Shown: positions 9,041-46,436 of the stretch, piece after piece
Layout of the letters: every line of letters starts with the position of its first letter
Numbering within the stretch: the first letter of the stretch is position 1
From: Rhodobacterales bacterium
GTDB lineage: Bacteria; Pseudomonadota; Alphaproteobacteria; Rhizobiales; Stappiaceae
Direction of reading: 5' to 3'
DNA: 64,000 nucleotides
Assembly: GCA_008107755.1 (NCBI GenBank)
Contig: VIRH01000058.1
Coordinates: 434,001 to 498,000 of the forward strand
Notes under the pieces: model-generated
Told to the model about the DNA's origin: nothing
The model's input: only the letters and a program-made list of their open reading frames with translations
The model's database searches: none
Position numbers and translations under genes: made by a program

Positions 9041-12000
9041 TTACCGGGTTGGACCCACAACGACAAAGCTTCCCGTTTCGGTCAGCGCATGACGATCCGG
9101 ACGGTACATGTCCTCCACCGACGCCGGCGGGTGCGTGTATGTTCCTGGGGTTGCCGCGCGGGCAAGGTAGGCAAAGGTCAGGGTCCGGTCGTCCCAGCGC
9201 CTCTGATCGACAGCCACCTCGAACCTGTCCGAATGGAAGGCCGCGTGTTCGGGCCGGTCTATGGTCGACAGGAACGAAAGTCCGCCAAGGTCTCCGGACC
9301 GGACCAGCCTCGGATTGTCGATAGCCCAGCCGGCAGGCAGGCGATCGACCACGATCAGCCGTCCGGGCTGATCGGTCAGGGCACGAACCGTGAGAACGAC
9401 CGCGAGACGCGTGTTCACCGGAACCGCATCGGGATCAACCGGATTTCCGTCGAGATCATAAACGGTCCGCTCGATAGCATAGTCCTTGCCACCGGCAGGC
9501 TCCGGAACAAGGGGCTTGCCGCTGACCGAAACCAGAACATCCATCGAATCCTGGCCGTTGTTGCTGACATCGACGGGCTGATCGACGAGTTCCGGTCCGG
9601 TGAACGACCATACCAGCCGCCCGGACGTTTCTTCACCATTCACGGACAGCTGTGCTTCCTCTGCGGACTTGTTGAGCGCGCGGGCGGCAAGCAGGAGCCA
9701 GGCCATTTCCTGCGTCGAGCGGCTTCCATCCGCTACCTGTGCCTGTTTCAGCTTGCCGATCGCTTCGTTGACGAGCCCTGACCCCATTGAAGTGGACACA
9801 ACGTAATCCGTGATCCCGGCGCTATCGCGCAACTCGGAACCAAAGTCGTTTCTAAAGCTCTCCCTCGGCTTGTCGTTCAAAGACTCGAGCGCGGCCTCGA
9901 AGGCGGTCGATGCCCGACCTGTCTCGCCATAGAGCGCAAGACTTGCCGCCAGCTGAGCCTTTGCGAGCGGTGTTCCGAAGTTGTCCAGCTTGGCATCGAG
10001 ATAGTATCGCAGATCCCCCATGGAGGCGCGGCCGTTGCGGGCAAGAACATAAAGCGCATAGGCCAGTCCCTCACCGCCATCCTCAAAATCCGTTGCGTAG
10101 GCAATCCGGTTTTCAAGATTGTCGAGCGACGTGGTGAATGCCAGTTCGGGAATGTCGTAGCCCTTCTCCTGTGCGCGGGTGAGGAAATCAGTGACATAGG
10201 CGTCCAGCCAGGTGTCATTGTCCCCATAGCTGCTCCACAAGCCAAACCCTCCGGATGACGACTGGTTCGCCAGAACCCTTGAGATAGCCTTCACGATCCG
10301 ATCGCGGATTGCAGCGTCCGAGCCAAGTCCGGCCGCCTCGGCGACCTCACTCAGATAGAGCAGCGGCAACGCACGGCTCGTGGTCTGCTCGGTGCACCCG
10401 TACGGATAGCGGTCTAGTGCCGCCAGGAGGCCCGCGATATCGATATCGGCAGCCCCGCCCACGGTCATCGTCAGTTCGACGCTATCTCGCACAAGACCAT
10501 CGAAGCTGTCCGGCGACAGGGAAAGGTTACCGCCGGCAGCAAGCTGAAAGGAAGACCGGCGCACCAGTTCGGGCTGGTTGTTCCTGATCTCGAGCGAACC
10601 GCGCTTGACGTAGGTCTTGCCATCCGGACCGGTAATCGATGCAACGATCTCACTCCTTTGCGCCGTATCTCCGGCGCTGACAGGGACAAGCACGACGGTC
10701 TTTTCCGCCTCGCCTATCTGAAGGTCCTGCACCTTGCGCCCTGATCCGCCATCAAGGGTCAGCCCCTCTCCCGCAGACACCTCGAGTTCATAAGTGCCGG
10801 CAGGGCCCTGGACATTGTCGATTTCGAGCGAAATGCGCGAGCGGTCGCCAGTCGAGAGAAACGCCGGCAGGCTGGCTGTCACGACCACGGGCGAAGCGAC
10901 CTTCACCTCCTCTTCCGCATGGCCGACGGCATCCGCGCTCCAGGCAACGGCCATCAGCCTCACGGCGCCGTTGAAGTTCGGAATATCGAAAGAGACAGTG
11001 GCTTCACCGTTCTGGCCGACTTCCACCAGCCCGGAGAAGAGAGCCAACGGCTCCTCGTCTGGCGGAGGAGAATCGAGGCGCGTTCCCATCGCGTCTCCGC
11101 CGGAACGAACCCGACCGAGCGTCCCCGCCATCCTGTCGATCAGTTGTCCGTAAAGGTCGCGAATGTCGGTCCCAAGGCTGCGCTGTCCGAAATACCAGCC
11201 ATCCGGATCGGGAGTCTGGAAATTCGTCAGATTGAGGATCCCGACATCAACGGCCGCAACCGTGATGAAGGCGGTGGAACCGGCTTCCAGATTGGCAAGC
11301 CTGACGGGCACATCAAGCGTCGTCTCCGGCAGGATCTTGTCCGGTGCATCCAGTTCGACATCCAGCACCCCGTCGCCCGGGTCGACCTTGAGCCAGGACA
11401 AGCCGAGCGCCCGCGAAGGCATCCGCTTCTGGTCCATGTCCATCGGCCTGTAGAGACTTGCCGTGATATAGGCGCCGGCCCCCCAGTCATCGGCGACCGG
11501 AATGTCGATTTCCGTTTCCTCGCCCGAGACCTGGACAGTCTGGCTGGACACAAGCCCCCCCACGACCACATTGACCACCGCGATGCCGGAGGACTGGGGT
11601 TTCAGGCGCAGCTTGGCCGTATCGCCCGGCCGGTATTGGGCCTTGTCCAGGCCGACATCGAGATAATCCGGCGTGTCGGAGCTGGCATCAGCCGTGTACC
11701 ATCCTGCATCGAACGTCAGGCTGGTTGCGATTTTCTGTCCGCCGGTCGTCTCCACGGTCAGCTTGTATTCGCCCCATTCCACCGGGAGCGACAGTGTCTC
11801 AGGCGTGCCGGCCTTCTTGTCGATCGCACCATTTGCCACCCGCTTGGATGTCGTGACGGGCTCAAAGTTCCAGCGGCCATCCACCCGGTACCACTGATAG
11901 CGTCGGTCGATCCTGGACAAGGTCCACTTCAGGCCCGAGGCGTCGATTTCCTTGCCGTGTTCATCAACGACGATCACTGAAAAATCAGCGGGACCGCCCT

Positions 12001-14593
12001 CGTCGACGCCGCCGTCGAAAGCAGGCTTGATGCCGATGCGCGGCGCATCCGACACGACCGGCAACTTGAGGGTTCGCTCGACGTAGCGCCCACCCGTTTC
12101 GACCAGGCGCGCGATCAGTTCGCCTTCATAGAGCCCGGTCGTTTCCGGCATATGGGGCGGAGTGGCGCTGAACTGGACCTGGCCGTCCTGATCGGTCGTC
12201 AGACCGGCCGCCAACGACGCCCGTTGAGGATAGGCGGATTCATCCTCAAGTCCGAAGACGTAGCCCGGGAAAGCTGCCATGGACCGTGTCGGATTGAAGA
12301 CAAGCTCTCCTTCAAGCGTCTGCCCGCTCGCCGCCGAACCGTAAAGGAATTTTGCCGTAACGCGAAAATCGGTCGGATCATTCAGGTCGAAGAAAGTCGC
12401 GTCTGTAACAATATCGAAATCAACCCGCTCCGGCTGATAGTCCTCGACGAGAAATGTCTTTTCGCTGAGAGCCTTTCCCTTGGGATCGGCAAACACCCGC
12501 CACGACCAGATGCCCTGCTGTGCCGAATTGGCGAGGGTCAGATCCTGAAGATGCCCCCCGAGACCGCCGTCTTCCACCGTATAGCGGGCATGCTCTACGC
12601 CATCGGGTCTTGAAAACACGAAGGTAAGTGGGAAATTCTCCTGAGCGACGGCGCGAGATGTGCGCAGGAGTGCCTGCGCGTGCACGGTTTCCCCTGCCTT
12701 GTAGATCCCCCTGTCGGTCCAGGCGAATGCGTCGAGCGGGCCTGGCGCCGGCCGGCCCTCAACGCCCCGGTCAGACAAATCGAATGCGGGCTTGCGCAGA
12801 TCAAGGAACGAATAATCGCCTGCATCGGTCTCCGCCACCAGAATTCCGGGCGCATTGCCGCCGCGTCCGCGCGTGAGTCCGGTTGCGAACTCGGCAAACC
12901 CATCGTCATTGGATGTCGTTTCACCGAGAATCTGGTTATTCACCGCCAGGAGGCGCACCGTAACACCGGACAGCGCCTCGGCGCTGGTGAGCGACCGGAT
13001 ATTGGCAACGATGCCATTGTCTCCGCTGAAGGCCGTCAGCCCGAGATCGGAGACCAGGAACCATTGGGTCGCCTTGGCGCCCCAGACGGAGTCGCGGTCC
13101 GTCTTAGAGCGCGCCGTCATGGCATAGACGCCGGGTTTCAACTCCAGTCCTGTTTCGCCAATCGGAATCGCGGTCGTGATGTCCTGGTTCAATTCGTTTC
13201 CGGTCTCGACAATCCCGGACCAGACCTTTTCGCCCAACTCGTTTTCTATCTTTTTAGCTTCGGATCCGTGAAGCTGCCGCAAGAATTGGTTGTCGCGCAG
13301 AACGTCCGCGACGGAGCGGCCTCCGACGCGATAGATCGATGCTTCAACCTCGTTCGTGTTGACGGAAACGATCGGAATCGTCGGATTGCCGCCGGAGGGA
13401 AGCACATAGGAACGGCCGACGAAATGAACGGTGGGCGAGCGGTCGCGAACGTATATGGAAAGCTCTCTCGACTTTACCAGCTCTTCGCCGTCTGCCGCCG
13501 GCAGTCCGCTACGGGCCGTGATTTCATAACGCGTACCGTGTTTCAAACCGTCGACGCAGACCTGCGACCCCTCGGTTTCGATGGAAACAGCTCCTGCGCC
13601 TCTCACGGTGACATAGGGGCTGAAATCCGTATCCTTCGGGAGCGTCTGGGAAAAGACGAGACAAATACGGGGCGAAGCGCTTTCGGAATCAACCTGATGG
13701 TCCACGATGCGGAAGCCATGCTGCGCCACGAGAGTGTCGTAGCGATCACGCCGTCCCTTGCTTTCGACCAGGGCAAGCGACGCACGAAGCGCCTTGATCG
13801 CCGAACTGTAATCTTCGATCCGTTCAAGGGAGATCGCCAGAAGGCTGAGTGACAGGGCCGCCTCCTGCGGGGAAACCGACCGCAAATAGCTATTCACCGC
13901 CGCAGAAACACTGTCTCTCTGTTTGGTCCGCTTCTCGCTCCAGTCGCTCGGTTTCTGCTGCAGCAACGCACGCGTCAACTGAACCCAGGCGTCGAAGTCC
14001 GCCGTATCTCGCATGACGAGTTCGCGAAATTGCGGTTCGGCAGCCGCGCCATTGCGATTTCGGAGCGACTGCACGCCCTCACTACGCAGCTCTTCGGAGG
14101 GCAGGCCCGTAGTGCGGAAATTATCGATGCTCGCGAGGTAGGTTTCAGCCTCGACCATCCGGTATCTGTCAAGGAAGGAAAGCTCGCTCTTCCTCGTCTC
14201 GCTCATGTCCGGGCGCGGCGCATCGACCTCCACGACCCGACCGGCGACCGCACCTGCAAAACTTTGAATCTCTCCGACCTCTCTCTTCAGGAAGCACCAC
14301 CCGGCCGAGGTATTGAACGTGAATGCGCGGCACTGACTGTCGTCGAGACAGATGGACTTGCAGCCTTCAAGATCGACCTCTTTCACCGTGCGGTAATCTC
14401 CGCCGAAAAAGTCCGCATCATTTACCGTGACGATGCGCTTGTCCTGCGCCTGCGCCTGCGCCTGCGCCGGAACCTGACCGCCAATGAAAAACGCGGCAAG
14501 CGAGGCGGCGAGCAGTGACGTAGCGGCAAAAATGCCTCCCCGAACGCCGAGTCCTCCACGCATACATTTGACGAGGTCAGAGAAAATGGCCAC
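9041..14593 (-). CDS. yfhM: Bacterial alpha-2-macroglobulin (YfhM/ECAM type) with N-terminal PAN/Apple-like domain
   Basis: 1,850 residues from GTG 14593, which has a perfect AGGAGG (14600-14605) six bases upstream; a longer frame from 14734 has no ribosome site. A signal peptide or lipid-less anchor (about 11-46) ends in a QAQAQAQ tract encoded by four tandem TGCGCC units. Next is a Cys-rich PAN/Apple-like domain (about 48-105, CKSICLDDSQCRAF and GWCFLKREVG), then the MG1-MG domains, the bait region, and the thioester domain with C1400-T-E-Q1403 in YPYGCTEQTTSR. The thioester lets the protein covalently trap attacking proteases in the periplasm. Forms an operon with pbpC. Confidence 0.95.
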   Translation of the reverse strand: MAIFSDLVKCMRGGLGVRGGIFAATSLLAASLAAFFIGGQVPAQAQAQAQDKRIVTVNDADFFGGDYRTVKEVDLEGCKSICLDDSQCRAFTFNTSAGWCFLKREVGEIQSFAGAVAGRVVEVDAPRPDMSETRKSELSFLDRYRMVEAETYLASIDNFRTTGLPSEELRSEGVQSLRNRNGAAAEPQFRELVMRDTADFDAWVQLTRALLQQKPSDWSEKRTKQRDSVSAAVNSYLRSVSPQEAALSLSLLAISLERIEDYSSAIKALRASLALVESKGRRDRYDTLVAQHGFRIVDHQVDSESASPRICLVFSQTLPKDTDFSPYVTVRGAGAVSIETEGSQVCVDGLKHGTRYEITARSGLPAADGEELVKSRELSIYVRDRSPTVHFVGRSYVLPSGGNPTIPIVSVNTNEVEASIYRVGGRSVADVLRDNQFLRQLHGSEAKKIENELGEKVWSGIVETGNELNQDITTAIPIGETGLELKPGVYAMTARSKTDRDSVWGAKATQWFLVSDLGLTAFSGDNGIVANIRSLTSAEALSGVTVRLLAVNNQILGETTSNDDGFAEFATGLTRGRGGNAPGILVAETDAGDYSFLDLRKPAFDLSDRGVEGRPAPGPLDAFAWTDRGIYKAGETVHAQALLRTSRAVAQENFPLTFVFSRPDGVEHARYTVEDGGLGGHLQDLTLANSAQQGIWSWRVFADPKGKALSEKTFLVEDYQPERVDFDIVTDATFFDLNDPTDFRVTAKFLYGSAASGQTLEGELVFNPTRSMAAFPGYVFGLEDESAYPQRASLAAGLTTDQDGQVQFSATPPHMPETTGLYEGELIARLVETGGRYVERTLKLPVVSDAPRIGIKPAFDGGVDEGGPADFSVIVVDEHGKEIDASGLKWTLSRIDRRYQWYRVDGRWNFEPVTTSKRVANGAIDKKAGTPETLSLPVEWGEYKLTVETTGGQKIATSLTFDAGWYTADASSDTPDYLDVGLDKAQYRPGDTAKLRLKPQSSGIAVVNVVVGGLVSSQTVQVSGEETEIDIPVADDWGAGAYITASLYRPMDMDQKRMPSRALGLSWLKVDPGDGVLDVELDAPDKILPETTLDVPVRLANLEAGSTAFITVAAVDVGILNLTNFQTPDPDGWYFGQRSLGTDIRDLYGQLIDRMAGTLGRVRSGGDAMGTRLDSPPPDEEPLALFSGLVEVGQNGEATVSFDIPNFNGAVRLMAVAWSADAVGHAEEEVKVASPVVVTASLPAFLSTGDRSRISLEIDNVQGPAGTYELEVSAGEGLTLDGGSGRKVQDLQIGEAEKTVVLVPVSAGDTAQRSEIVASITGPDGKTYVKRGSLEIRNNQPELVRRSSFQLAAGGNLSLSPDSFDGLVRDSVELTMTVGGAADIDIAGLLAALDRYPYGCTEQTTSRALPLLYLSEVAEAAGLGSDAAIRDRIVKAISRVLANQSSSGGFGLWSSYGDNDTWLDAYVTDFLTRAQEKGYDIPELAFTTSLDNLENRIAYATDFEDGGEGLAYALYVLARNGRASMGDLRYYLDAKLDNFGTPLAKAQLAASLALYGETGRASTAFEAALESLNDKPRESFRNDFGSELRDSAGITDYVVSTSMGSGLVNEAIGKLKQAQVADGSRSTQEMAWLLLAARALNKSAEEAQLSVNGEETSGRLVWSFTGPELVDQPVDVSNNGQDSMDVLVSVSGKPLVPEPAGGKDYAIERTVYDLDGNPVDPDAVPVNTRLAVVLTVRALTDQPGRLIVVDRLPAGWAIDNPRLVRSGDLGGLSFLSTIDRPEHAAFHSDRFEVAVDQRRWDDRTLTFAYLARAATPGTYTHPPASVEDMYRPDRHALTETGSFVVVGPTR

Positions 14594-14752
14594 GGTTGTC
14601 CTCCTGATCATACTACCCTTATGAAGACACTTCATCGTCTCCAGCACAAGGCAAAACCGCCAGCCGGACGGTACTCCTGACGGTTCCAAGCGGGTTTGAA
14701 AAGTATCCCGAAGGCTCCAGGCATGTTCCGGCACATGGCAAGACGGCAGGGA

Positions 14753-16914: not shown

Positions 16915-18249
16915 CTAGCGGCCCTCGATCAGCTTTCGGCGGAGCCAGCTCGACATCTGATCCATGAGGATGACCACAACGATGGTCAGGATGATGATAT
17001 AGCTGGTGTTTTCCCAGTCGCGCGAAGTCTTCATGGTCTCGACCAGAAGAAGGCCAATGCCCCCTGCCCCGAGGGCACCGATCACGGTGGCCGAACGGGT
17101 GTTCGACTCGAGATAATAGAGCACCTGCGACACGAAAACGGGAAGAATTTGTGGAATGACGCCGAACCGGTAGCGTTGAAGCTGGTTGGCACCGGTTGCA
17201 CGGACCCCTTCGACCTGCCTGTTGTCGATATTCTCCAGAGCTTCGGAAAACAGTTTGCCGAGAGATCCGGTGTCGGTGAAGGCAATTGCAAGCGCACCGG
17301 TCAGCGGCCCGAGGCCGAAGGCACGAATGAAGATGAGCGACCAGATCAGCATGTCGATGCCGCGCAGGAAGTCGAACAGCCGACGCGTTCCGAAGCGCAG
17401 GACGAGGGAGGGCGTGAAATTACGCGCGGCGAGAAACGCCAGCGGCAGGCCGAAAAGCGCTGCGGTCAGCGTTCCCAGAACCGCCATCATGATGGTCTCG
17501 AAAAGCGCAGTCAGGACGGCGCCGTGTTGCCAATCAGGATTGCTGAGGAATTCCTCGACGACAAACCAGAGGTTAGAGTAGTCCGGATCGATACGGTCCG
17601 CATTCAGGGCAAGCGCATAGAGTTCGCTGAAGGACATGCCATAGAGCGGTGAGCGGAACGGGAACCAGAAATTTTCCCAGCCAGCGAAGTAGTTGTGGAC
17701 CTCGATCTTGGTCTTGGTGATCTGCAGCCGCCTGTCGATCGTCGGCCTGACTTCGAGCTTGCGCGGATCGACCTTGACCCAGTCGGGGACCGGCCCTTCC
17801 GGCAGTTTCGTTTCCACGCCCGTTTCAGTCGCAGTTCCTCGGATCACGCCGAAATTCGGTATCGTGAAAAGCGCCGTCTTGCCATCAATCTCGATCTCGT
17901 AGCCTTCGCCCAGATCAACGACGGCGTTGTCACCGGAAAGGTCGATCCAGTCCGGCAGGTCGGTGTTGTCGTAGGTTGCCGTGCGCTCGCCCTCGATGGC
18001 TACTTCGAACGTGTCGCTCCGAAAGTTCTTCTCCACCTGCACCTTGTAGGCCACCGAGTCCGTTGCCAGAATCGCCGCTCTGTCCGGCCGTGCCTTGGCG
18101 AGGAGACCGGTTATGTCGAAGGCGAACCAGGTGTAGGCCAGATAGAGAAGGACTGTGCAAGGCACCAGAACGGTGAGCCAGGCCCGGCGCCGGATCTTCG
18201 GCCAGACCGTGTTCAGTGTGACGGTGGGTTCCAGAGTGTCGGTCGTCAT
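16915..18249 (-). CDS. phnE: Phosphonate ABC transporter permease PhnE2 (long form)
   Basis: 444 residues from ATG 18249; a TTG start at 18264 overlapping the previous stop is possible but weaker. One N-terminal membrane helix (about 27-47) is followed by roughly 150 residues of periplasmic sequence rich in Asp and Glu, then the standard permease domain with five helices and the EAA-like loop GVRATGANQLQRYRFGVIPQ. Ordinary PhnE proteins are about 260-290 residues, so the extra domain is the special feature of this long paralogue, a form also seen in other Hyphomicrobiales. Third gene product after phnC and phnD; starts 12 bp after phnE1 stops. Confidence 0.92.
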   Translation of the reverse strand: MTTDTLEPTVTLNTVWPKIRRRAWLTVLVPCTVLLYLAYTWFAFDITGLLAKARPDRAAILATDSVAYKVQVEKNFRSDTFEVAIEGERTATYDNTDLPDWIDLSGDNAVVDLGEGYEIEIDGKTALFTIPNFGVIRGTATETGVETKLPEGPVPDWVKVDPRKLEVRPTIDRRLQITKTKIEVHNYFAGWENFWFPFRSPLYGMSFSELYALALNADRIDPDYSNLWFVVEEFLSNPDWQHGAVLTALFETIMMAVLGTLTAALFGLPLAFLAARNFTPSLVLRFGTRRLFDFLRGIDMLIWSLIFIRAFGLGPLTGALAIAFTDTGSLGKLFSEALENIDNRQVEGVRATGANQLQRYRFGVIPQILPVFVSQVLYYLESNTRSATVIGALGAGGIGLLLVETMKTSRDWENTSYIIILTIVVVILMDQMSSWLRRKLIEGR

Positions 18250-18260
18250 CTCTAGGTCTC

Positions 18261-19109
18261 TCAATGCGCCCGGCTGCTGCCGACGAGCCGACCGCGCAGC
18301 CAGGACGACAGCTGGTCTATGATCATGATGGTGATGAACAGGAGGACAAAGATCGCCGCGGTCTCATCGCCGGCCCCCTTGCCCCAGCCGATGGTCCTGC
18401 GCAGCTCCTGCCCTATGCCGCCGGCCCCGACGAAGCCGAGGATGGCCGAGGCGCGAACATTGATCTCGAGCCTCAAGAGAAAATAGCTGAGGTAATTGGG
18501 CGCGACTTGCGGAAGAACCGCGAAACGGATGCGCTGCAACCAGTTTGCACCGCAGGCCGACAGACCCTCGATCGGTTTGCGGTCAATGTTGTCGTTGACT
18601 TCCGAAAACAGCTTGCCCAGCGCCCCGGCGGTGTGGAATGCAACCGCGATCATGGCAGGCACCGGGCTTGAGCCCAGCACGAAGATCAGGAAGAGCGCTA
18701 TTATGAGTTCCGGAAAGGCGCGCATGACATCCATGATCCGGCGGACAACCGGAATGAGCGGGCCCCAGCTGTCGACATTCCGGGTCGAGGCCATGGCGAG
18801 GACGACGGCCCCTGCCCCGCCGAGCAACGTGGCGACCAGCGCGATGTTGAGCGTTTCCATCATGGCCGGCAGAAAGTGCAGGATCTGGCCAAAAAAAGCC
18901 GGTCCGGCATCTATCGCCTCTGCAACGATTTCACCCGGATAGTCGAAGAACTTCGAAAGGCCCTGAAGAAAACCTCCCGAATTCATCGAATTGGCTTTGG
19001 AATAGCCTGAGACGAGAACGGCGACGACCAGCAACAATCCGATGAGGGAATAGAGCTGGCGGTGCTTTCGCAGCGACAGGATTTCCTGCTCGAGAGCGGC
19101 AACAGCCAT
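18261..19109 (-). CDS. phnE: Phosphonate ABC transporter permease PhnE1
   Basis: 282 residues, about the standard PhnE length. Membrane helices at roughly 18-37, 85-110, 130-155, 205-235 and 245-265, and the cytoplasmic coupling loop SACGANWLQRIRFAVLPQV that docks on the ATPase. Together with PhnE2 it forms the pore for uptake of phosphonate or phosphite. It lies 200 bp behind phnD, with an intrinsic terminator-like hairpin in between (19258-19293), which suggests lower expression than phnC-phnD. Confidence 0.93.
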   Translation of the reverse strand: MAVAALEQEILSLRKHRQLYSLIGLLLVVAVLVSGYSKANSMNSGGFLQGLSKFFDYPGEIVAEAIDAGPAFFGQILHFLPAMMETLNIALVATLLGGAGAVVLAMASTRNVDSWGPLIPVVRRIMDVMRAFPELIIALFLIFVLGSSPVPAMIAVAFHTAGALGKLFSEVNDNIDRKPIEGLSACGANWLQRIRFAVLPQVAPNYLSYFLLRLEINVRASAILGFVGAGGIGQELRRTIGWGKGAGDETAAIFVLLFITIMIIDQLSSWLRGRLVGSSRAH

Positions 19110-19309: not shown

Positions 19310-20224
19310 TTACTCGCTTTTCGACTTACGGGCTTCGATGATGGAAGTGTAGGCCTCGTGGGTGATCGGCTCGAAGCCTCTGGCTTCGCCGGCCATCACG
19401 CCGTAGGCGCATTCCGGATCTTCCTTGGCAAGGTTGGCCATCAGGTCGGTCATCTTGGTCTTGACGTCGTCCGGCAGTTTGTTCGACAGAACGACCGGAC
19501 CTTCCGGGATGACCGGCGAACGCCAGATTTCCCGAATCTCGGTCATGTCGACCAGACCGGCATCAGAGGCCTTGCGCAGGGCACCGGAATTGTAGCCGTC
19601 CTCCCATTCTCCGAGGCCGTCGGCCCAGGTGACGCCCGCATCGATATCGCCATTGAACACGGCAACGATTGTCTGCTCGTGACCGCCGGTGAAAACGACG
19701 TCGGAGAAGTATTCACCCGGCTTCATGGAATAGCCCAGCTTCGGGATCTCGATCGACGGGATCAGGTAACCCGACGTCGAATTCGGATCGCCAAAGCCGA
19801 AAGTCTTGGCCTTCATGTCCTCAAGCGAGTTGATCTCGCTGTCGACGCGTGCAAAGCCGATGGAGTAGTAGCCGTAGCTGCCGTCGTTATTGACCTTCAC
19901 CAGAACCGGCTCGACTGCTTCCGGGTCGGTCAGAAAAACCTTGGCGTAACCGGATGCGCCGAGCAATGCCATGTCGAGATTGCCGCCGAGAAGGCCTTCG
20001 ATCACGCCGTTATAATCGGCCGGCGCGAACAGTTTGACTGGTACGCCGAGCAGGTCGGCAGCCTTTTCTTCCAGGCATTCGTTGGCGCGCAGGCGGTCCG
20101 AAGCGTTTTCGCCCCCAAGGATGCCGATGCGGAATTCGCTGATTTCCTGGGCTCCGGCGATCGAAGCGTTCAGGGCGATCGTGCTGACTGCGGCGAACAC
20201 AGCTATACTGGAAACTATTTTCAT
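19310..20224 (-). CDS. phnD: Phosphonate/phosphite ABC transporter substrate-binding protein PhnD
   Basis: 304 residues from ATG 20224 (GGGGAG upstream; a GTG at 20233 is less likely). Signal peptide to about residue 25 (ending IAGA). The mature protein has the PhnD pattern FRIGILGGENASDRLR, ALLGASGYAKV, SYGYYSIGFARVDS, FGFGDPNSTSGYLIP and VVFTGGHEQTIVAVFNGDIDAGVTW, which together form the phosphonate pocket (Tyr, Ser-Thr-Ser and Asp positions). Binds phosphonates in the periplasm and delivers them to PhnE1/PhnE2. Second gene of phnCDE1E2. Confidence 0.95.
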   Translation of the reverse strand: MKIVSSIAVFAAVSTIALNASIAGAQEISEFRIGILGGENASDRLRANECLEEKAADLLGVPVKLFAPADYNGVIEGLLGGNLDMALLGASGYAKVFLTDPEAVEPVLVKVNNDGSYGYYSIGFARVDSEINSLEDMKAKTFGFGDPNSTSGYLIPSIEIPKLGYSMKPGEYFSDVVFTGGHEQTIVAVFNGDIDAGVTWADGLGEWEDGYNSGALRKASDAGLVDMTEIREIWRSPVIPEGPVVLSNKLPDDVKTKMTDLMANLAKEDPECAYGVMAGEARGFEPITHEAYTSIIEARKSKSE

Positions 20225-20277
20225 ATGGGACACTCCCCGAGGGTCTGATACGTGATTACGTCTTTCGTGCGGGCTGC

Positions 20278-21111
20278 TTAGACCGCCACTGCCGCCGGGC
20301 TCATCGCTCCGGCGGATCTCGATCTGCCGGGGGCACCGGCATCGATGGCGGTCGACGTGGCCGCCTCGTTGAAACTTTCATCCGCGCCATAGATCTCGCG
20401 GGCGGCCTGTGTCGTCAGTTCCTCCGGCTTGCCGTCGAAGACGAGGACGCCGTCACGCATTCCGATGACCCGGTCGCAATAGCTGCGGGCCGTATCGAGC
20501 GTGTGCAGGTTGCAGATGACCATCTTGCCGTCGCGTTCGTGAATTTCGCGCAGCGCATCCATGACAATCTTTGCATTCATCGGATCGAGCGAGGCGATCG
20601 GTTCGTCCGCCAGGATCATGTAAGGCGTCTGCATGAGCGCACGTGCGATCGCGACGCGCTGCTGCTGCCCTCCGGACAACTCCTCGGCACGCTTCGTTGC
20701 TTCTTGCGCGATGCCAAGGCGATCGAGCGCAGCAAGTGCGTCGCGGACATCGTCTTCCGCAAAAACGTTGAAGAGGCTCTTGAGGGTCCCGTGACCGTTA
20801 AGCCTGCCCAGCATCACGTTGGTCACGACATCAAGCCGCGGCACAAGGTTGAACTGCTGGAACACCATGGCGCAGTCGCGTTGCCAGCGACGCATCATTG
20901 CGCCCTTGAGGCTGAGGATATCCCGGTCACCGAACAGAATCTGGCCGGAGGTTGCCGGTGTCAGGCGATTGATCATTCGCAAGAGGGTCGACTTGCCCGC
21001 CCCCGAACGTCCAATCACACCGACCATCTGCGGCTTGTCGATGCCGAAACTGATGCCGTTGACTGCGGTCCTTGCGCCGAAGCTCTTCGAAACGTTCCGA
21101 AATTGAATCAC
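20278..21111 (-). CDS. phnC: Phosphonate ABC transporter ATP-binding protein PhnC
   Basis: 277 residues. Walker [10 protein letters not shown] at 34-42, Q-loop Q85, signature [15 protein letters not shown], Walker B YMILADEP, and the switch His in ICNLHTLD. First gene of phnCDE1E2. The last 30 residues ([14 protein letters not shown] end) extend beyond the usual PhnC. The gene starts about 67 bp after a candidate Pho box on the minus strand (21178-21195), fitting control by phosphate starvation. Confidence 0.95.
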
Positions 21112-21177
21112 CCGTCAGCCCTGCCGTGGTTGGTGCGTTTTCTCCGGCGAGAAGAGCCATCGCAAGATTGCAGGTTG

Positions 21178-21195
21178 ATGACAGGTTCTTGACCG
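21178..21195 (-). promoter_or_regulatory. Candidate Pho box for phnC
   Basis: On the minus strand the bases read CGGTCAA-GAAC-CTGTCAT, two 7-base repeats with a 4-base spacer, matching the PhoB consensus CTGTCAT-N4-CTGTCAC closely. It ends 67 bp before the phnC start codon. Prediction from pattern only. Confidence 0.6.
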
Positions 21196-21403
21196 GACCA
21201 TCAAAGATTGACGACGGTTCAATGACAGCGGCCGGGAGGTCTGCCGGCACCGATTTTCCCGAAGACGAATTGACCGGTCTCCTTAAGAGCTTCGGGCAGC
21301 CGCAGGCGAGATGCCCCGTCAGACATCGACCGGGCCCCTCGGCAGATCGCAGAGCCGCAGGCGTCGCGCTTTTTGCCCCATGTCGCACAGGAAAAGGCGG
21401 CCT

Positions 21404-21421
21404 CGGTCATGACAGTGTCAT
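21404..21421 (+). promoter_or_regulatory. Candidate Pho box for the acetyltransferase
   Basis: On the plus strand the bases read CGGTCAT-GACA-GTGTCAT, again 7+4+7, with 12 of 14 matches to the PhoB repeat consensus. It lies 71 bp upstream of the acetyltransferase start at 21493 and faces the opposite way to the Pho box upstream of phnC. The region 21112-21492 between the two divergent genes holds no gene that I can support. Confidence 0.55.
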
Positions 21422-21492
21422 CGAAGCGTCGCCAAAGCGCGCGCCGGAAGCCTTATGATGCTCCCCTCACCTCGATTCTTCCCGGAGCCTCA

Positions 21493-22119
21493 ATGTCCGC
21501 CCCCACACAGAAACCCGCTCTCACAGAAGCACCGAACATTCATCCGGACGCACATGTCCTTGACTGCGAGCTTGGGAGATGGACCGAAGTCGGTGCCTTC
21601 ACCGACATGCGGGAAAGCCGGATGGGAGATTATTCCTACATCGTCCAGGAAGGCGATGTCGTCTGGTCTACCATCGGAAAGTTCTGTTCCATCGCACGCC
21701 GTGTGCGTCTCAATCCCGGCAATCACGCAACCTGGCGAGCATCGCAGCACCACTTCACCTATCGCGCAGCAGCATACGGTTTGGGGGATGACGATGCGGA
21801 GTTCTTCAACTGGCGCAAGGAGGATTGGGTGACGATCGGAAACGATGTCTGGATCGGGCACAACGTGACGGTTCTTGCGGGTGTTACCATAGGAACCGGC
21901 GCGATCGTCGCTGCCGGAGCAGTCGTTTCAAAGGATGTTGCGCCCTATACTGTCGTCGGCGGTGTCGCCGCAAAGGAAATCAAGCGCCGTTTCAGCAAGG
22001 CCCAGGAAGAGGCTCTTCTGGCCATAAGCTGGTGGGACTGGAGCCACGACCAGTTGAAGGAGCGACTTCCCGATTTCCGCAAGCTCTCCATCGACGCCTT
22101 CATCGAGAAATACCGCTAG
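21493..22119 (+). CDS. Phosphonate-associated hexapeptide-repeat acetyltransferase
   Basis: 208 residues from ATG 21493; a longer frame from 21373 would cross the Pho box and lacks a ribosome site. Left-handed beta-helix repeats are clear: [19 protein letters not shown], then [19 protein letters not shown] and [20 protein letters not shown]. This is the xenobiotic/chloramphenicol acetyltransferase-like group that accompanies phn genes (TIGR03308 type). It may acetylate an aminoalkylphosphonate or an intermediate, but its substrate is unproven. It is divergent from phnCDE1E2; C-P lyase genes phnG-phnM are not in this window. Confidence 0.85.
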
Positions 22120-23589: not shown

Positions 23590-24744
23590 TTATGCCTTGC
23601 CGCTCAGGCCGGCGCCCACCGTCAGCAGGCGCGGGACCGCCTCGACAAGCGCCGCGATGCCGCCGAAGGCGTGTGGCCGCGAGGCCATCCAGGCGACCGT
23701 GCGCGAAACCTGCAGGCGCGGCCCGAAGCGCCTGACCCAACTTGAAGAATAGCGTTGACCGGCAGCATCCCGCAGGGCGGCATCGTGAAGGTCGATGCCT
23801 TCAAGCTCGCGCCCAAGCAGGGAGGCGGACTGGATCGCCATCGATATTCCCTCAGCGATCGCCGGATGCGCTTCTCCCGCCAGATTGCCGACGCGGAAAA
23901 TACCGTCCTGGTAGCGCGTCCGGATCGCCGGTCGGACAGAACCGGTCGCAAGCCACTTGCCCGATAGCTCCGCACCCTCCAGCACCTCCCGCACACCGCG
24001 GCAACTCGCAAGAAGGTGGGCATGGACGATTTCGGCGGCGGTTCCGCTGTGCTCCTGCCGCAACCGATCAAGAGCCTCGGCACGTATGCAGCAGGAAAGG
24101 GATAGCCGTCCCGCGTCGGCCCAGACGATCCCGCCGTAGCCACCGGGAAAGGCCAGTAACGGCATGGTATCGTCGGCGAGTTCGGCGTCCTTGAAATAGG
24201 CTTTGAAGCCCAGAAGATCCCTTGTGCCGGCGTTTTTCGGCAGGCCGGTCGGCAGCGTCGTGCGATCCCAGGACCCGTGGGCGGCTATGACAATCGGCGC
24301 ACGAAGCGTCCGCGATTCTCCGCCGGCCGCTTCGAGGGTCACCTCATGTTCGCCATCCACATGATCGAGTGCCACCGCACGGCAGGGCTGGTGGAGATCG
24401 GCCCCCTCGCCCTTAGCGGCGTCGCGAAGCAGGGTGTCGAGCACATCGCGGCCGAGCGCCCGGCCAAAACTCTCGCCGCCCGGCATCGGTGCCGTCACCA
24501 TGCGCTTGCCGGCGTAAAGGGCAACCTTTCGGATCTCCGGCCCCGCGTGAGCCCGCCACGCCTCCTCGACGCCCAGTCGGTGAAAGATGGGAATGTTGGC
24601 GGCCGACATGAATTCCCCGCACACCTTTCGGCGTGGGAATTCTTCCCGTTCGACAAGGGCTACCCGGCGCCCTTGGCGGGCCAGCTCTATCGCGGCCGTC
24701 GAGCCGGCCGGGCCTGCACCAATGACAATCACGTCATAGCTCAT
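23590..24744 (-). CDS. FAD-dependent oxidoreductase of a type III PKS operon (geranylgeranyl-reductase-like)
   Basis: 384 residues from ATG 24744. Rossmann FAD motif GAGPAG at 9-14 in DVIVIGAGPAGSTAA, the following RRKVCGEF motif, and the second FAD motif FRVGNLAGEAHPAIAEGISMA near residue 290, all typical of the geranylgeranyl reductase/UbiH-related flavoproteins. Its start codon overlaps the stop of the methyltransferase (ATGA), so the two are translationally coupled. It probably oxidises or reduces the aromatic or pyrone product of the PKS; this is inference. Third gene of the operon. Confidence 0.88.
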   Translation of the reverse strand: MSYDVIVIGAGPAGSTAAIELARQGRRVALVEREEFPRRKVCGEFMSAANIPIFHRLGVEEAWRAHAGPEIRKVALYAGKRMVTAPMPGGESFGRALGRDVLDTLLRDAAKGEGADLHQPCRAVALDHVDGEHEVTLEAAGGESRTLRAPIVIAAHGSWDRTTLPTGLPKNAGTRDLLGFKAYFKDAELADDTMPLLAFPGGYGGIVWADAGRLSLSCCIRAEALDRLRQEHSGTAAEIVHAHLLASCRGVREVLEGAELSGKWLATGSVRPAIRTRYQDGIFRVGNLAGEAHPAIAEGISMAIQSASLLGRELEGIDLHDAALRDAAGQRYSSSWVRRFGPRLQVSRTVAWMASRPHAFGGIAALVEAVPRLLTVGAGLSGKA

Positions 24745-25448
24745 GGCATCTCCCCGCCGCGTGCCGCAAAACCATGCGTAAACGGCCCGATCGATCGCTC
24801 GCACAGGACGTTCCCGGAACCTCCGGGCCAGAGTTCCGACAGTTCATGCCCAGTGAACCCCGCCCAAACGCTCGCGGGCGCATCATGACGCGTGACGGCG
24901 TTGGCGCCGATCACGCCGAGTGTTCCGGAGGCCATCAGGGCAAAGCGGGACCGGCGCGGCTCCGTCGCAACGAAGCAATCCGCAAGGTCTGCGATCCCTG
25001 TAAGAAGATCCGTAAGCTGCTCTTGATGAAAGTGATGGAGAAAAAGATTTGTCAGCATGAGGTCCTGCCGTTCGCCACGGCCCAGCCAGTCAAAGACATC
25101 AGCAGTTACGGTTTCCAGAGACCAGCCAAACGCTGCGATCTGCTCACGCACATCCTTCCTCACAAGATCCTGCTGGTCGACGAGGGTCAGCGTGACATCC
25201 GGCCAGGCCGGGGCCATTTTCCGCGCAAGTGCCAATGTGGCGTGCCCGTCTCCGCAGCCGATTTCGGCGATCCGGCGCGGCGGATTGGCAACATATCTGC
25301 GCAGGAGCCCGGACATGACGGACGTCTGAAACATCAACGCGTTGATGCGGCGCAGATCCCGGCGCGAGCCCTGGGCGGCAGCATCTTCCGGCGGCAGCAG
25401 ATCAAGCATTTCCGGAACGATGGCGCGCCCGGCTCGAAGGTCCTTCAT
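24741..25448 (-). CDS. SAM-dependent methyltransferase of a type III PKS operon
   Basis: 235 residues from ATG 25448, which overlaps the PKS stop codon (ATGA). Class I methyltransferase with motif I AEIGCGDGHA at 61-70, the acidic strand TLTLVDQQD (binding the SAM ribose), and ADVFDWLG then LMLTNLFLHHFHQEQL as motif IV/V. It likely methylates the polyketide on oxygen or carbon. The arrangement PKS, methyltransferase, flavoprotein recurs in alphaproteobacteria, but the product of this version is not known to me. Confidence 0.88.
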   Translation of the reverse strand: MKDLRAGRAIVPEMLDLLPPEDAAAQGSRRDLRRINALMFQTSVMSGLLRRYVANPPRRIAEIGCGDGHATLALARKMAPAWPDVTLTLVDQQDLVRKDVREQIAAFGWSLETVTADVFDWLGRGERQDLMLTNLFLHHFHQEQLTDLLTGIADLADCFVATEPRRSRFALMASGTLGVIGANAVTRHDAPASVWAGFTGHELSELWPGGSGNVLCERSIGPFTHGFAARGGEMP

Positions 25449-26518
25449 GACGCCATCCTGAAGGTCATAGTCTCGGCGGTCAGGCCCGGCCCGAACGCCA
25501 TGCCGCACCCTTTCTCGCCGGCGCGGGCCGTTTTCAGCATTCTGGCGAGTACGAACATGACCGTCGCAGACGACATGTTGCCGTAATCACGCAGCACCTG
25601 ACGCGACGGCTCCAGCGCATCCGAGGAAAGGTTCAGCGTTCGCTGCACCGCATCCAGCACCGACCGCCCGCCGGGATGAACGGCCCAAAGATCGATGTCA
25701 TCGACCGCGTCGCCATCAAGGATCGTTTCGATATTTCCTCCGAGCACCGTGTGGATCTTTGCAGGTATCTGGCCGGACAGCACCATATCGAAACCGTCAT
25801 TGCGCACATGCCAGCTCATGAGGTCCCGTCCATCCGGGGCAAGCAGTGCCTTGAACCGGTCGAGCTGTATGCCTTCCTCGCTCGCCGTCACAAGGGCCGC
25901 GGAACAACCGTCGCCCCAGAGGCTGAATGTGAGCAGCTGTTCAAGATCCGCAGTTTCCTTGAGGTGGAGCGTCGTCAGCTCGCAATTGACGACGAGGACT
26001 TTTGCCTCTGGCTCGGATCGGACGATATGGCGGGCAAGCTTGAGGCTGTTGATGGCGGCGTAACAGCCCATGAACCCCACCGACGTTCGCTCGACCGAAG
26101 GGTTCAGGCCGGCGCGTGCGACGATCTCCAGATCGACACCGGGTGCGGAAAACCCCGTGCAGCTTGCAACGATCAGGTGCGTGATCTTGCTGGTGTCACT
26201 GCCCAGCTCCAGCTTCTCGACGGCCTGAATCGCAAGCTCGGCTGCATGGACTTCGTAGAGGTCCATACGATCGGCCGTTCCCGGGAAAGCGCCCCTGCGA
26301 AACAGTCCGTCCCTGTCGATCACCGGTCCGGACGCATCATTGGCGGGTGCGAGACAGGAAAAGCGATGTTCTATGCCCGCGCGGTCGGCCATCTTCCTGA
26401 AAAGCGCCTGTTTCCTCGGCTCCCTTTCAAGGTTCGCCGCGGCAAATTGTAGAAAGTAGTCGTGAACTTCGAAAGCGGGCACCGCTGTTGCAATGCGGTT
26501 GATAAACGTGCGGGTCAT
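25445..26518 (-). CDS. Type III polyketide synthase (chalcone/stilbene synthase family)
   Basis: 357 residues. Complete thiolase-fold catalytic triad: C152 in GFMGCYAAINSLKLAR, H281 in WAVHPGGRSVLDA, N314 in DYGNMSSATVMF. The C-terminal GCGMAFGPGLTAETM is the family's cyclisation-cavity signature. Condenses malonyl-CoA units on a starter CoA ester to give alkylpyrones or alkylresorcinols; the starter cannot be told from sequence. First gene of an operon with a methyltransferase and an FAD oxidoreductase joined by 4-base overlaps. Confidence 0.95.
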   Translation of the reverse strand: MTRTFINRIATAVPAFEVHDYFLQFAAANLEREPRKQALFRKMADRAGIEHRFSCLAPANDASGPVIDRDGLFRRGAFPGTADRMDLYEVHAAELAIQAVEKLELGSDTSKITHLIVASCTGFSAPGVDLEIVARAGLNPSVERTSVGFMGCYAAINSLKLARHIVRSEPEAKVLVVNCELTTLHLKETADLEQLLTFSLWGDGCSAALVTASEEGIQLDRFKALLAPDGRDLMSWHVRNDGFDMVLSGQIPAKIHTVLGGNIETILDGDAVDDIDLWAVHPGGRSVLDAVQRTLNLSSDALEPSRQVLRDYGNMSSATVMFVLARMLKTARAGEKGCGMAFGPGLTAETMTFRMAS

Positions 26519-46148: not shown

Positions 46149-46436
46149 CTAGGCGGCCAGAAAGCCGAGCCTGTCGTCGAGCCGGGAGGGCGTAATTTCC
46201 AGAATTGTTGCGCTCACGATGCCCTCGGCGACGAAGGGATCGGTGGCCACGAATGCCTGCAGGGTCTCGCGACTGGTTTCATGAGCGATGATGGCACCGC
46301 CCATGTTTGGCTGAAGGCTGCCGACCATCAGGAAAAGGCCCCGGTCGAAACCTTCCTGAATCCACGCATTGTGGCCCTTCATGAACTCTGGCGCCTTCGC
46401 CTTGTTTTCGGAAAATGTCAGCGTCACGACAAACAT
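46149..46436 (-). CDS. YciI-like protein
   Basis: 95 residues from ATG 46436, chosen because GGAG lies six bases upstream; the frame continues back to 46475. PF03795 pattern: MFVVTLTFSENKAKAPEF, HNAWIQEGFDRGLFLMVGSL, and FVATDPFVAEGIVSATILEI with the conserved His-Asp pair of the putative active site. These small ferredoxin-like proteins may be dehalogenase- or dehydratase-like enzymes, but their reaction is unknown. It follows the TetR gene by 57 bp and is likely its target. Confidence 0.85.
   Translation of the reverse strand: MFVVTLTFSENKAKAPEFMKGHNAWIQEGFDRGLFLMVGSLQPNMGGAIIAHETSRETLQAFVATDPFVAEGIVSATILEITPSRLDDRLGFLAA

Follow-up and report, generated by a model that had tools for sequence, protein, structure and literature searches.

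Putative divergent PhoB promoters for phosphonate uptake and a TIGR03308 acetyltransferase in the Roseibium group

The 381-bp intergenic gap between phnC (minus strand) and a divergently oriented acetyltransferase gene (plus strand) contains two conserved arrays of 11-bp repeats, which, judging from their sequence, are very probably PhoB-activated switches, one for phosphonate uptake and the other for the partner acetyltransferase. The gap lies in the window, that is, the whole stretch of 64,000 nucleotides analysed here, which belongs to a genome of 6.1 Mb in 152 contigs. The broader reading, to which we assign a probability of about 0.9, is that of a Pho-regulated phosphonate pathway distributed over two loci, with divergent PhoB promoters at the first and a C-P lyase operon under PhoB and PhnF at the second; phosphate starvation would then co-induce the transporter and the acetyltransferase.

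The genes at both sides of the gap were assigned from their matches to NCBIfam models. On the minus strand, a single gene row encodes a PhnCDE transporter whose three kinds of component all exceed the family cut-offs: the ATPase gene phnC (20278..21111, GTG start; TIGR02315, 311.1 bits, cut-off 266.1), phnD for the phosphonate-binding protein (19310..20233; TIGR03431, 304.8 bits, cut-off 261.1), and the permease genes phnE1 (18261..19109; TIGR01097, 242.4 bits) and phnE2 (16915..18264; 267 bits), both against a cut-off of 216.7. This PhnD is the top scorer among the ten PF12974 matches of the genome; the other phosphonate-binding proteins were considered as partners of the C-P lyase and set aside, the next two scoring 109.9 and 60.1 against the PhnD cut-off of 261.1. 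On the plus strand, a hexapeptide-repeat acetyltransferase of 208 aa is encoded (21493..22119, ATG start; TIGR03308, 274.6 bits, cut-off 201.65). A PhoB ortholog is present in the genome (TIGR02154, 344.1 bits, cut-off 296.2, at C43:99407), its gene lying approximately 4.5 kb downstream of pstS. No Rfam family reached the gathering threshold when positions 20900-21800 were scanned for structured RNA. Elsewhere in the window, adjacent minus-strand genes for a type III polyketide (chalcone-synthase-like) synthase, a methyltransferase and an FAD-binding oxidoreductase (23590-26518) probably form a small polyketide cluster, and a bacterial alpha-2-macroglobulin-like protein of 1897 aa is encoded at 9041-14734, also on the minus strand.

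A preliminary description of this DNA had noted one pair of 7-bp units with a 4-bp spacer at each side of the gap, and both strings were recovered exactly, CGGTCAA-GAAC-CTGTCAT on the minus strand at 21195..21178 and CGGTCAT-GACA-GTGTCAT on the plus strand at 21404..21421. The distance of about 70 bp given there to the start codons is also accurate (66 bp to the phnC GTG at 21111 and 71 bp to the acetyltransferase ATG at 21493), but the boxes do not face each other, as had been stated; they stand back to back, each reading outward to its own gene. Both pairs are parts of longer arrays with an 11-bp period, so that the gap holds at least two CTGTCAT-like 7-bp units in the spacing by which a Pho box is recognized. 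The phnC-side array spans six registers (minus strand, 21228..21167: CTGTCAT/CCGTCGT/CTTTGAT/CGGTCAA/CTGTCAT/CTGCAAT), with strong pairs formed by units 1 and 2 (21228-21211) and units 5 and 6 (21184-21167), whose starts are 44 bp apart, and with degenerate units in the middle; the last pair, CTGTCAT-CAAC-CTGCAAT, located one unit downstream of the one previously noted, outscores it (16.0 vs 12.9). The acetyltransferase-side array comprises three units (plus strand, 21404..21432: CGGTCAT/GTGTCAT/GCGTCGC), the third of them weak.

Scoring of both sites with a PhoB matrix had been proposed as a check, and both score well with one derived from other promoters. The unit matrix was trained only on pstS upstream regions from 30 genomes of the genus, the genome under study included, taking the best consensus match per region and counting each of the 10 distinct sequences once. 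With this matrix, which leans to the E. coli consensus and for which several training matches are not the main conserved pstS box, four dimers of the gap rank among the first six of 127,966 window positions, ranks 1, 4 and 6 on the phnC side and rank 3 on the acetyltransferase side. The genome as a whole has 32 places that match CTGTCATN4CTGTCAT with at most two mismatches, and by hand count four of them, two overlapping, fall within these 381 bp. Another place in the same genome, C68:35824 (L012:3825), has a Pho box with a single mismatch near a gene for an OmpR-type response regulator; this regulator falls below the PhoB cut-off (143.7 vs 296.2) and is not PhoB.

Absence of conservation in close relatives had been named as an observation that would speak against the two boxes; the arrays are kept in 23 orthologous gaps, and the DNA between them is not. 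Among 91 relatives, 80 related loci were fetched, and the divergent arrangement is maintained in 23, with gaps of 332-400 bp; these records, mostly named Roseibium or Labrenzia, show 78-88% identity in the acetyltransferase, start with GTG in phnC and ATG in the acetyltransferase in 23/23 cases, and represent one group, hence not independent samples. One locus (L091), in which the two genes are divergent but enclose C-P lyase genes, was excluded before alignment. Taking the window together with the 23 gaps, the best dimer exceeded the 95th percentile of dinucleotide shuffles in 24/24 gaps on the phnC side and 20/24 on the acetyltransferase side. The opposite strand, used as control, also exceeded it in 13/24 and 8/24, respectively, perhaps because ATGACA/TGTCAT-type cores resemble each other on both strands. 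The acetyltransferase-side box is below the threshold in L018, L019, L021 and the more divergent L033; units 2 and 3 still align in the first three. Mean column identity is 0.76 in the phnC-side boxes and 0.78 in the acetyltransferase-side boxes vs 0.45 between them, and decreases to 0.51 from the acetyltransferase box to the ATG.

In a PhoB-regulated promoter, the boxes replace the -35 element and a -10 element follows at a set spacing. Motifs at largely constant offsets from the last unit were observed on both sides of the gap, and candidate -10 elements could be proposed there. For the acetyltransferase promoter, TATGAT (plus strand, 21454..21459) begins 28 nt past the first base of unit 3 and is a putative -10 element; in 20/24 gaps a CTA starts at offset 27 from the start of this unit, and the window, which reads TTATGAT at that position, is among the four without it. 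In pstS, the corresponding CTAG is located 16 nt past the start of the last unit, as counted by hand on the alignment, and the two spacings (27 vs 16) therefore differ by exactly one 11-bp repeat. For the phnC promoter, the candidate is TCTTCT (minus strand, 21150..21155), a poor match to a -10 element which reads TCTTGT in most relatives; counted from the last unit, the exact TCTTGT lies at offset 18 in 16/24 gaps, and L019, whose register was fitted one unit out of place, has it at 29. This candidate falls inside a conserved TGGCTCTTGT block. Conservation across the whole phnC leader (21112-21166, minus strand), from the box to the GTG and including that block, matches that of the boxes themselves (0.80 mean identity); the leader may hold the -10 element or something else.

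The preliminary description had also pointed out that no C-P lyase genes are present in the window. This is correct, but the genome encodes a C-P lyase operon with conserved Pho repeats on a different contig, and the pathway is therefore not missing. PhnJ is recognized there (PF06007, 482.5 bits), and the gene row reads phnG, H, I, fosX, J, K, L, a DUF1045-type gene, M and N, with phnF divergent; PhnF, PhnG, PhnH, PhnK, PhnL, PhnM and PhnN are above their cut-offs in the genome, and phnI, which has no NCBIfam match, was assigned from its position and from its resemblance to the gene that relatives have between phnH and phnJ. The gene between phnI and phnJ (L010:8432-9211, on C54) encodes a FosX-type fosfomycin hydrolase (FosX, 206.9 bits, cut-off 170). 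The promoter region of this operon carries CGTCAT-type units in the orientation of phnG, and in this orientation the repeats exceed the 95th percentile of mononucleotide shuffles in 30/30 genus loci, with 0/30 for the control strand. Beside them, between phnF and phnG, lies a conserved palindrome of the form TTTGTCTATTTGTCTATACAAAT (L010:6380-6640, L151-L180), which is likely the operator of PhnF, a regulator present in 30/31 genus genomes searched. In the genome under study the palindrome reads TATAGACATCTATA, and its only exact copy is in the phnF-phnG gap.

Several other explanations were weighed for the sites in the phnC-acetyltransferase gap. That they are chance matches to a degenerate motif is barely conceivable: the window does have CTGTCAT-like pairs outside the gap, such as those at 46432 and 47383, but none of 300 column-permuted matrices placed four of its top six dimers in the gap (278 placed none, 19 one and 3 two), and the sites are kept over the 23 relatives. 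The reversed matrix put no top-six dimer there, and alternative periods from 8 to 15, except 11, put two at most. A leading role for PhnF in the control of the gap, in the manner of the C-P lyase operon and with PhoB secondary, is also highly improbable. The genome does encode this regulator (TIGR02325, 275 bits), but a search of the gap with up to two mismatches allowed found no copy of the palindrome whose form is conserved in the phnF-phnG region, and PhnF control of the gap was dropped for lack of an operator match.

The acetyltransferase side raises two further alternatives. The plus-strand site might be the palindromic operator (ATGACAgTGTCAT, 21409-21421) of another regulator instead of a Pho box, in agreement with the perfect 13-bp odd palindrome that the window shows at this position. 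All six pairs are nevertheless palindromic in the window only, the other 23 gaps scoring 2 to 5 of 6, and the GTCAT units are retained at their 11-bp spacing; this operator, which appears very improbable, was discarded since the palindrome is not conserved. Alternatively, the phnC side alone could be a working Pho promoter and the acetyltransferase side a decayed or minor copy. The lower scores of the latter (mean 13.5 vs 18.6), the 4/24 gaps that fall short, and the additional 11 bp between its last unit and the -10-like CTA in comparison with pstS are in favor of this view, but its box columns are conserved equally with those of the phnC side and the CTA is fixed in its position in most gaps, making such a decay unlikely. 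Two PhoB-activated promoters remain the preferred reading.

The location of this acetyltransferase beside phnC is not arbitrary, as TIGR03308 is a family named for phosphonate metabolism. Its family description (phn_thr-fam) associates it with genomes that encode C-P lyase, and the genome under study, where the window protein is the only TIGR03308 match above cut-off, encodes C-P lyase too. In the fetched DNA of 57 further relatives with other arrangements, phnCDE-like matches were found in 48, phnI or phnJ in 6 and phnM-like matches in 35, some of the phnM- and transporter-like ones being of low identity and possibly paralogs; in 24/57 no more than 60 bp separate the start of the acetyltransferase gene from a phn gene on the same strand. 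Four of the 57 have no transporter, phnI/J or phnM match; three of these stretches are shorter than 7 kb, and the fourth (L092) is of full length. Among solved structures, the chains closest to the window protein are those of chloramphenicol (CatB-type) and streptogramin (Vat) acetyltransferases. The role proposed for it, N-acetylation of aminophosphonates, is that of E. coli PhnO (described in PMC3840354 and PMC10574752). PhnO is a GNAT-family enzyme, and the hexapeptide-repeat protein of the window belongs to a different enzyme family, a point that counts against the proposal.

The proposed mechanism considers the gap as two separate promoters pointing outward. At low phosphate, phosphorylated PhoB would bind the 11-bp repeats head to tail at each side and recruit RNA polymerase. 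Transcription from the phnC side would yield PhnCDE1E2 and the import of phosphonates for the distant C-P lyase, and that from the other side the acetyltransferase of family TIGR03308; the most likely activity of this enzyme is N-acetylation of an aminophosphonate before or alongside C-P cleavage, by which it would mask aminophosphonates as PhnO does. Phosphate status alone would then govern import and acetylation, and the C-P lyase would need both low phosphate and release of PhnF. Tentatively, and with less than even confidence, this may be extended to a two-tier wiring in the Roseibium group, with import and acetylation under PhoB only and C-P lyase under PhoB plus PhnF, by which aminophosphonates would be imported and masked before commitment to cleavage; the acetyltransferase promoter may likewise represent a class of PhoB promoters whose boxes are placed one 11-bp repeat further from the -10 element than in pstS.

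Head-to-tail binding of PhoB to direct repeats of 11 bp is established (PMC4415409), and phosphonate catabolism usually lies within the Pho regulon (PMC10574752). The E. coli phn operon has a Pho box upstream of phnC, with the same CTGTCAT core in 11-bp direct repeats and control by phosphate starvation (PMC10574752, PMC4415409), but it is one operon with C-P lyase behind phnCDE, whereas here the transporter and acetyltransferase genes diverge and C-P lyase is at another locus. In Sinorhizobium meliloti, the alphaproteobacterial transporter and phn genes (phoCDET and the phn Pho regulon) are also induced by phosphate stress (PMC8829014); no divergent acetyltransferase promoter is described in the available part of that source, a distinction based on description and not on sequence. 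Marine C-P lyase clusters likewise include a hexapeptide-repeat transferase among the phn genes, given as undefined in role by the authors (PMC3840354); the transferase of those clusters lies within them, in contrast to the window gene, which is remote from C-P lyase and has a divergent Pho promoter to itself. When Stappia stellulata grew on 2-aminoethylphosphonate, the proteins it produced did not include those of C-P lyase, PhnD among them, and a different transporter was used (PMC8316502); the present system is therefore not the sole phosphonate route in such bacteria. No mention of TIGR03308 was found in the literature searched, and a title-level search, which is no proof of absence, returned no paper titled on this Roseibium promoter.

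In summary, the biology appears ordinary and well built, a phosphate-starvation response kept across the Roseibium group. The novel aspects would be the splitting of the pathway over two Pho-controlled loci, of which only that of C-P lyase carries a PhnF-type operator, and the assignment of TIGR03308 to a Pho promoter of its own. This would make a little-studied, phosphonate-linked acetyltransferase part of the way in which a group of marine bacteria responds to phosphate starvation, connect the transporter with a C-P lyase from a separate locus, and offer a simple test of whether or not the acetyltransferase is a functional stand-in for PhnO.
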